Positions 38,974 to 53,785 of a DNA stretch of 64,000 nucleotides are shown in pieces. The stretch covers positions 66,295,501-66,359,500 of the forward strand of contig CM057469.1 of the NCBI GenBank assembly GCA_030035585.1, in the 5' to 3' direction. This DNA is from Dugong dugon. Lineage: Eukaryota > Chordata > Mammalia > Sirenia > Dugongidae. The stretch's first letter is position 1. Each line of letters opens with the position of its first letter. The translations under genes were made by a program, and so were the position numbers. Under the pieces are notes generated by a model, which saw only the letters and a program-made list of their open reading frames with translations, was not told the DNA's origin and ran no database searches.

Positions 38974-38981
38974 ATTGCACC

Positions 38982-39349
38982 CAGAGGCGGATTATCCGAT
39001 AAACAAGGTAAGCACGGGCTTACTTGTGCTTACCTACCAATCTGTAGTGAACAATTTCACAACATGAAAACCATGTGAAATTCTTCATTACAGTTTAGTA
39101 AGTAAGCACAAGTAAGCCTGTGCTTACTTGTGCTTACTGGTTCATCAGCCCCTGTCAGAGATTATAAATTTGAAAAGAGGCTTTGATTCTGTAGGAGGGT
39201 ACTGGGGGCTTGGGAGAGAAGCAGATGCCAGCCATACCTAGAAGCAGAATCTTTGATTTGGTGAAAAAAATGTGAAATTGTTCACTACATATTTGTGATA
39301 AGCACAAGTAAGCCCGTGCTTACCTTGCTTATTGGATAACCCGCCCCTG
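38982..39349. mobile_element. hAT-type DNA transposon, non-autonomous, three termini
   Basis: 368 bp bounded by CAGAGGCGG and CCGCCCCTG. The outer ~51 bp ends are inverted repeats with four mismatches, and a further identical block (tgtagtgaacaatttcaca, 39041-39059, versus its complement at 39271-39289) extends the inverted repeat to nearly 80 bp. The 8-bp target duplication attgcacc (38974-38981) / attgctcc (39350-39357) has the length that hAT transposases make. Inside, 39074-39154 is a second, diverged right end closing in cagcccctg. There is no coding capacity. The autonomous partner may be related to the remnant at 42065-42367. I do not recognise the family name. Confidence 0.85.
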
Positions 39350-39357
39350 ATTGCTCC

Positions 39358-41054: not shown

Positions 41055-41397
41055 GCACAAGCCAGCACACCAGCAGCCTCAGGGCTGCTCACACAGGGTC
41101 CTTCTGGGCCAGTTTTCACTCAATAAGAGCATTTTATAAGAGGAACTCAGGTGTGTCAAGCAGCTGGCTGACAGGAAGTGGGGAGTAGCCAAATGGAAGG
41201 AGTTGTGTTCAGTCCTCCTCGATTAGAGAGATTCCTGAGAAAGTGAGACAGAAGCCCTGACATTAAAACATGGAACAAATTGCCCATGGATCCCTCTGCC
41301 CATTCATGGTCAGGGCCAGATAAGGGCCCTAAACATTGATAATCTATGGTGCCTCCTCCTCTATTTATTCACATTCGAATGGGATATGTGAGTTAGA
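41055..41397. other. Unassigned
   Basis: No recognised repeat or gene before the TG microsatellite. Confidence 0.4.
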
Positions 41398-41430
41398 TGT
41401 GTGTGTGTATGTGTGTGTGTGTGTGTGTAT
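41398..41430. repeat. TG microsatellite
   Basis: Two TG runs interrupted by a single tatg. Confidence 0.95.
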
Positions 41431-41471
41431 TAGCTACCCATGATGTAACCTCTTTTTAAATTAAAAAAAAG

Positions 41472-41632
41472 AAAAACCAAACCCATTACCCTTGAGTAGA
41501 TTCTGACTCATAGCAACTCTATAGGACAGAGTAGAACTGCCCCATAGAGTTTCCAAGGAACACCTGGTGGATTCCAACTGCCGATGTTTCGGTTAGCAGC
41601 TGTAACACTTAACCACTATGCTATCAGGGTTT
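41472..41632 (-). mobile_element. AfroSINE, short form
   Basis: Reverse copy with an A-rich tail from 41461. Target duplication cctctttttaaa at 41449-41460 and cctcttttaaaa at 41633-41644. Confidence 0.94.
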
Positions 41633-41644
41633 CCTCTTTTAAAA

Positions 41645-42064
41645 TGTGAGTATAATATCAGCAATTTAATGCAAAAGTGGTGTGTGCCATTTTTAGTGGA
41701 ATGGGATGAACTGTATTAGAAAATTTTCAGTGAATGCGGGTTACTAAGATTTTTACTATATACTGCACATTCTACCAAAAGAATATTCCACACATTCCAC
41801 AACAAACAAAATGAGTCAGTGAACTTAGTTGTTTTAACAAGCAATGTAAAATTCTATTGATCTCCCATAATGAAAAACTGACTTTCACCAATTTTGCTTT
41901 AAACAGCTCATACTTTAGTTTTTATGCTTGGTTTTGTAATAAATACTACAATTATAAATGAACAAATGAAAAGATGTCATAAAAGAAAATTTAATGATCA
42001 GAAAACAAATATTACAATAAATTACTATTTTTTTTGATCAATCTTTATCTCTAACATCTTATAA
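41645..42064 (-). other. AT-rich tract, possible hAT element 3' UTR
   Basis: About 420 bp directly downstream, in the minus sense, of the hAT transposase carboxy end. It may be the untranslated 3' part of that element. I could not find its terminal inverted repeat. Confidence 0.35.
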
Positions 42065-42367
42065 TTAAAAACGTTTCTTTCTCTTCTTTGCTTTTACAAA
42101 TTCTTCAGTGATTTCATCACAGTTAATCTCTCCAACAATATCTACTTCCAGACATAATAAGGATAATGAATCAAGTCTTTCTTGAATCATTGTTGTGCGC
42201 TGGCTGGCTTTTCCTTGTGTCCTGTCTGCTTGGCATCTATGGGCCTTTGCTTTGGACAGCTGGTGCCCATTTTGTTGATGCCCTAAGTACTTGCTTACCT
42301 TGTTTATTGGGTAATCAATCTCTGTTCTTGGCTCCCTATAGCACTCTTTCTTTCTGACTCCGCTCAC
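42065..42367 (-). pseudogene. hAT transposase carboxy-terminal remnant
   Basis: A reverse frame of 100 codons whose last 41 (42068-42190) read like the carboxy end of hAT transposases: MIQERLDSLSLLCLEVDIV, then NCDEITEEFVKAKKRKKRF and a stop. In the family this segment (typically (S/T)M-QERL--LALLSIE-) completes the RNase-H-like catalytic fold and dimer interface. The upstream part of the frame has no transposase similarity and includes a stretch like the terminal inverted repeat (42293-42316). So most of the gene, including the DDE residues, is missing by internal deletion. Host domestication is not indicated: no intact gene remains. Confidence 0.65.
42286..42324 (-). repeat. hAT terminal-inverted-repeat-like sequence
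   Basis: gcttaccttgtttattgggt at 42293 and the following bases match the right end of the transposon at 38982-39349 at 21 of 24 positions and the complement of its left end at 22 of 24. It continues to caatctctg, where the outer transposon has ccgcccctg. Confidence 0.65.
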
Positions 42368-53447: not shown

Positions 53448-53785
53448 AATGTTGTTGTTAACTGCTCTTGAGTCGACCCCACGCACAATGAGCAAAACGC
53501 TGTCCAGTCTGCTCCATTCCCATGATCTTCTGGGGATTGGACCATTGTGATCCATTGGGATTTCATTGACCGATTTTTTGGAAGTAGACCACCAGGGCTT
53601 TCTAACCAGTCCATCTTAGTCTGGAAGCTCTGCTGAAATCTGTTCATTGTCATAGCAACACGAAAGCCTCCACTGACAGACGGAGGGTAGCTGTGCGTGA
53701 GGTGCATTGTGCATTGGCCAGGAATCGAACCCGGGTTTCCCGCAGGGAAGGTGAGAGTTCTGCCACTGAACCACCAACGTCTCTT
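53448..53785 (-). mobile_element. tRNA-Gly-headed SINE with RTE-derived body
   Basis: Reverse copy. The head at right retains strong tRNA-Gly character: in sense, ggtggttcagtggcagaact and the B box gggttcgattcctggcc (around 53718-53735 reversed). The body holds in sense tccagactaagatggactgg, and an RTE-type tail with GTT triplets is at left. Same family as 11346-11659, with a better preserved head. Confidence 0.88.

Follow-up and report, generated by a model that had tools for sequence, protein, structure and literature searches.

Transposons are normally defined by two ends. The small hAT-type element at 38982-39349 of the window, the 64-kb stretch of DNA analysed here, carries three, which raises the questions of how a third end was acquired and which of the ends have served in transposition.

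A three-ended element in the window

The element has the termini CAGAGGCGG...CCGCCCCTG and lies between two copies of a target site duplication, ATTGCACC (attgcacc) at 38974-38981 and ATTGCTCC (attgctcc) at 39350-39357, which are identical at 7 of 8 positions. The outer left end L (38982-39061, plus strand), defined by a local alignment of 80 columns with the outer right end and recognised in 40 of 40 copies, forms the first arm of a palindrome. The inner end M (39074-39154, minus strand), supported by the genome-wide count of its junction with the spacer, forms the second arm, and the matched arms lie 12 bp apart in this copy. M faces right and ends at 39154, where it is followed not by a target duplication but by a spacer S (39155-39259, plus strand), ~105 bp of probably captured DNA that is preceded by an M terminus in all sampled copies. 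The outer right end R (39260-39349, minus strand) is supported by the count of its junction with S and by comparison with the arms of a stand-alone element described below.

As inverted ends, L and R differ by four mismatches in their first 51 bp; beyond this, an inner stretch is near-identical and includes the 19-bp block TGTAGTGAACAATTTCACA. Scored as an inverted match, L and R reach 118; in 1,967 control windows of equal size, all taken from the same 64 kb, the best score is 85 and the 99th percentile 24. The earlier note on this DNA had described the termini with these inverted repeats, the 8-bp duplication and a third, right-facing terminus without a target duplication, and each of these was seen again here.

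The 14-base motif aagcacaagtaagc is present exactly at two positions (39104, 39300) and as its complement at two more (39018, 39122). It had been suggested to be a subterminal transposase site. Its repetition within the termini stands; as an obligatory site at every outer end it is ruled out, because a second type of outer right end lacks it (15 of 40 copies by script, 16 after one manual re-reading).

The three-ended layout belongs to a high-copy family

The window's own genome (3.16 Gb, 196 contigs) was searched with the whole element, which returned 3,787 first-look candidates. The best 40 were scored, namely the window copy and 39 others, mostly of 81-86% identity, all of which were fetched; as these 40 are the copies closest to the window, divergence and layout are biased toward full copies. 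The order L-M-S-R was found in 40 of these 40. Since the DNA search scored only the best 40 candidates, copy numbers were taken from whole-genome pattern counts: with up to 3 mismatches allowed, the M/spacer junction pattern matched 2,169 places and the spacer-R junction pattern 2,886, and the reversed-pattern control of each matched none. Additionally, a search with the spacer gave 417 candidates, of which the best 40 were scored, and the 39 other than the window were 90-93% identical to it. An M terminus preceded S in 20 of 20 further S copies sampled, in register (at least 16 of 22 bases) in 16 and recognised by eye after a small shift in 4. At E 0.01, neither the ends nor the spacer were matched in a 200-kb random genome sample.

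The consensus of the 40 copies is 370 bp long with the ends CAGGGGCGG...CCACCCCTG, and mean divergence from it is 10.0% at non-CpG sites. A tree built from 260 columns of these copies has a star-like shape and no strong support for any of its 37 inner branches (the bootstrap had not settled), which fits a burst of spread.

Two copies carry additional units. L037 has the layout L-M-S-R'-S-R within a perfect 8-bp duplication, CTTGGGCC. In L012, a damaged second copy of S-R accompanies L-M-S-R between the flanks GTAGGCAG/GTAGGTGG. Duplication of S-R therefore occurs in the composite family, and copies that carry it were still able to transpose. L027 has an extra, partial left end and L076 an extra right end. 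Alternative end types were found at R in 15 of 40 copies by script and at L in 4 of 40, always alongside an alternative R, while M is of type 1 in all 40; this suggests exchange between outer ends only.

The outer ends have been used in transposition

At the outer borders of the 40 composites, identity between the two flanks is 0.566 at length 8, compared with 0.17-0.31 at each of the nine other lengths from 3 to 12. A target duplication matching at 6 or more of 8 positions is present in 18 of the 40, four of them perfect; among mismatched left/right pairs 1.5% reach 6 and none exceeds it. The other 22 fall below 6 of 8 at the exact border, some through decayed or shifted ends. These duplications at the outer ends bear out the earlier proposal that the composite moved as a unit via its outer end, and the identity peak at 8 bp only, together with the CAG...CTG terminal inverted repeats of the 40-copy consensus, agrees with the assignment to hAT elements.

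The hAT subgroups Ac, Buster and Tip100 have subgroup-specific target-site consensus sequences. Here target-site preference is weak (A at position 4, T at position 5), and neither nTnnnnAn nor nnnTAnnn is clear. At ~370 bp, non-coding, and with two junction patterns of more than 2,000 matches each, the family has the properties of a MITE, which would have been mobilised in trans.

A stand-alone palindromic MITE resembles the L-M half

A search with the L-M half as query gave 2,721 candidates, of which the best 40 were scored, and 24 of these places were not among the composites found before. Twenty of the 24 were fetched. The spacer lies beside M in 18 of them (16 by BLAST; for L070 and L076 the first bases were judged by eye), and two, L081 and L087, have neither spacer nor R. 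With L087 as query, 3,785 candidates were found, and each of the best 40, which were scored, covers most or all of the 187-bp query. We aligned 22 copies (20 fetched from this search plus L081 and L087, a set biased toward the query L087), which define a 188-bp palindrome, a separate family resembling the L-M half. This MITE has 8-bp target duplications of its own, matching at 6 or more of 8 positions in 13 of the 20 copies with both flanks readable, six of them perfect. The foldback MITE that the earlier note supposed to have captured a second right end thus exists as an element in its own right.

The two arms of the stand-alone MITE, named A and B, differ at few sites. R is identical to the A arm at 88 of 96 positions and to B at 83 of 95, and its likeness to A stops ~3 nt past the palindrome loop. 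M matches B at 82 of 90 positions and A at 80 of 90. L is close to both (78 of 84 with A, 75 of 82 with B) and shares CCAATAAGC near its tip with A and R. In some composites, the other inner variant is present near the centre on either arm. Judged from these identities, R looks more like an A-type arm left by a second MITE copy that was cut near the palindrome centre. The arm identities of L, M and R, together with the break of R near the loop, lead to the model A-B'-spacer-A', in which the assignment of L and M to A and B, drawn from few diagnostic sites, would be the least secure step.

Origin of the composite

Because the stand-alone MITE exists with its own duplications, the composite is best read as a MITE, ~105 bp of captured DNA and the arm of a second copy. 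The family is likely to be a non-coding hAT MITE family of high copy number whose members have three ends, and in which a MITE, a captured spacer and the arm of a half-copy have moved as one block. In the model that we propose, two pieces would have come to lie with ~105 bp between them: a palindromic MITE of ~188 bp with arms A and B', and a half-copy of a related MITE, reduced to an A' arm by a break close to the centre of its palindrome. A hAT transposase acting in trans may then have used A and A', the two outermost ends, as its pair and so mobilised everything from A through B' and the spacer to A'. This block would have amplified to at least ~2,000 copies without use of the inner B' end (M). 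After or during this spread, the L-M palindrome would have been cut at its hairpin or cruciform centre, possibly by a hairpin nuclease, and the cut centres rejoined with mostly one-sided deletions that differ in most of the copies examined. The unjoined pair of half-copy and MITE was not found among the copies examined.

Alternatively, the parent could have been a two-ended L-S-R element in which a tandem S-R duplication was followed by loss of the first S between the inverted arms, giving L-M-S-R. The extra S-R units of L037 and L012, which come with target duplications, are in keeping with such a history, and a duplication of this kind might have made M. However, an L-M-like MITE with its own target duplications stands alone in the genome, and S comes after M in all 20 sampled copies; moreover, neither the 40 best copies nor the 20 L-M matches that were fetched include an L-S-R lacking M, in searches that favour M-bearing copies. 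We consider this route unlikely, and the joining of a MITE to a neighbouring half-copy remains our preferred reading.

A hAT relative with a DUF4371-type transposase

The window also contains a relative separate from the MITE, a 1,014-bp deletion derivative of a DUF4371-type hAT at 41311-42324 (minus strand, right border proposed), whose proposed flanks GCCAAGAA/ACCATGAA are identical at 6 of 8 positions. Its left end, CAGAGATTGATTACCCAATAAACAAGGTAAGCA, shares 33 of 41 positions with the A arm of the stand-alone MITE. The derivative retains a C-terminal transposase tail (42066-42199) of a kind typical of hAT transposases; a Pfam search with the 44-residue tail gave no match. The tail search returned 824 candidates and the left-end search 1,246, and all of the best 150 and best 40, respectively, that were scored were matching. 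In two places (C15:44466380-44470920 and C25:20900301-20904283), ~4 kb separates a left end from a tail on the same strand. Among 49 DUF4371 matches, eight were placed by eye on the same strand and at most 1.3 kb upstream of a tail match, and two lie downstream of a left-end match.

The relative is widespread in the genome and partly resembles the MITE at its left end; the likeness of the autonomous relative is confined to the outer 33-41 bp, whereas its interior and its proposed right end look different. From these sequence comparisons, the data support a DUF4371-type hAT as the source family of the MITE or a near relative, and its transposase is a candidate mobiliser of these MITEs.

Several other features of this group were observed. 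On C4 (3204385-3204631), left end and tail meet at nearly the position at which they meet in the 41311-42324 derivative, so that this derivative may itself have been copied. A SINE-like insert at ~41460-41640 of the derivative is absent from four aligned relatives; it appears to resemble AfroSINE, a likeness that would fit the afrotherian origin guessed at earlier. Four DUF4371 matches lie in long open frames (665-871 aa, no stops), at C3:59774746, C26:177346547, C3:48158706 and C9:70652720, and are possibly domesticated hAT-derived genes.

Erosion of the palindrome centre

In the window copy, the centre of the L-M palindrome is an 18-bp remnant (39059-39076, overlapping the arm borders) of the 41 bp inferred for the ancestor; missing are the 3-base loop, 13 bases of the left side and 7 of the right. 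Stand-alone copies show the ancestral centre directly, free of indels in 4 of 22. In the composites it is free of indels in none of 56 readable copies, and 55 have lost at least 6 bp there (the count omits L076, L081 and L087, L034 was unreadable, and neither the 56 nor the 22 are a random sample). Losses are one-sided by at least 6 bp in 43 of the 56. When indel events were counted in 10-bp bins along the 370-bp consensus (40 copies), 72 fell at the centre and 17 in the next most affected bin, an A-run near R, with 0-4 in each of the rest. One-sided deletions thus cluster at the palindrome centre, as a break at that point would predict, and the varied one-sided losses are what repair of such breaks would leave. 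The 3-nt loop occurs both as AAA and as TTT, in composites as well as in stand-alone copies, as if the centre had been inverted.

The varied centres could instead be subfamily differences passed on by inheritance, or artefacts of alignment or assembly. Some patterns do recur: a deletion between two ACAT repeats is common to 6 of the 56 composites, and recurring patterns in the stand-alone family include one deletion in 5 of 22 copies, a sample biased toward L087, so that some shared patterns may be inherited. Against this stand the 51 different patterns among the 56 readable composites and the star-like tree with its lack of strongly supported inner branches (bootstrap unsettled). In addition, the left half of the centre survives in some composites and the right half in others, and the ancestor therefore had both halves. 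Taken as a general explanation, inheritance or artefact appears quite improbable, and we return to breakage at the centre.

The centre was also followed by whole-genome pattern matching. A matched-arm centre pattern with 30 fixed bases occurs at 146 places, of which the best four differ from it by a single base and none is exact, and a mismatched-arm pattern at 411 places, 12 of them perfect; for comparison, the spacer-R pattern, also of 30 bases and with 3 mismatches allowed, has the 2,886 places given above. Of 50 listed matched-arm matches, 28 recur in the mismatched-arm listing of 100 places, and because both patterns match there, these places are probably stand-alone copies. The matched-arm match at C1:96050459 sits just before the spacer copy at C1:96050572, where the centre of a composite would be expected. 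At least one composite therefore seems to keep its centre, and the inferred ancestral centre, going by this one place, seems to have existed in a composite.

We put forward, tentatively and with some doubt, that thousands of insertions of one near-perfect palindrome of ~190 bp, most of them broken independently at the centre after insertion, make the family a genome-wide natural record of palindrome repair in a mammalian germline, and that the same kind of breakage created the family, a three-ended transposon whose inner end was left unused. The last point follows within our reading of the outer right end as a MITE arm cut at its centre.

Discussion

The composite family combines features of known kinds of elements with a layout of its own. 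Small hAT MITEs and foldback MITEs are known kinds. Mammalian MER-type hAT MITEs are likewise small, non-coding and high-copy, with 8-bp duplications and CAG...CTG ends. The composite stands apart in the constant order of its three ends and in the thousands of copies that moved although an inner end was passed over. Foldback elements such as Drosophila FB share the two long palindrome arms and the extra end units, which are found here in L037 and L012. In contrast to FB, the third end of the composite lies beyond a captured spacer; the target duplications of the composite are of the 8-bp hAT type. What appears new, as far as the present data go, is a three-ended unit at high copy number together with the erosion of its centre. 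The family may already be catalogued under a name. No account of this family was found in the titles and abstract openings of the open-access papers listed, nor in passages of PMC3183009. A pattern scan of viral contigs gave 0 matches. An Rfam scan of the window at gathering cut-offs gave no match to the element; one tRNA was matched elsewhere, at 53710-53780 (minus strand, 40.6 bits).

The centre deletions resemble centre-break revision of palindromes in mammalian cells, where, according to a review (PMC8701086), most inverted transgene junctions observed by its authors carried asymmetric deletions, believed to stabilise the palindrome. One-sided centre deletions are common to both; those systems are transgenes and reporters, whereas here the process would be read from old germline insertions of a natural element.

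One further explanation of the third end, that it arose by local duplication after a single insertion and is unique to this copy, is refuted, because the layout is common to 40 of 40 scored copies at unrelated places, all with two right ends rather than one, and because the M/S (2,169) and S-R (2,886) junctions recur throughout the genome with control counts of 0.

Taken together, the three-ended layout has been a replicating unit at ~2,000 or more places, and illustrates how ends can be re-paired and flanking DNA captured. Its palindrome half presents many scattered insertions of one starting sequence, so that the outcomes of repair at the centre can be read from them. The stand-alone relative, whose arms are mismatched beside the centre, offers a possible matched comparison, with 4 of 22 centres free of indels versus 0 of 56 in the composites, although these samples are not random. 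If this reading is true, composite palindromes may hold a natural record of the ways in which cells mend palindromes.
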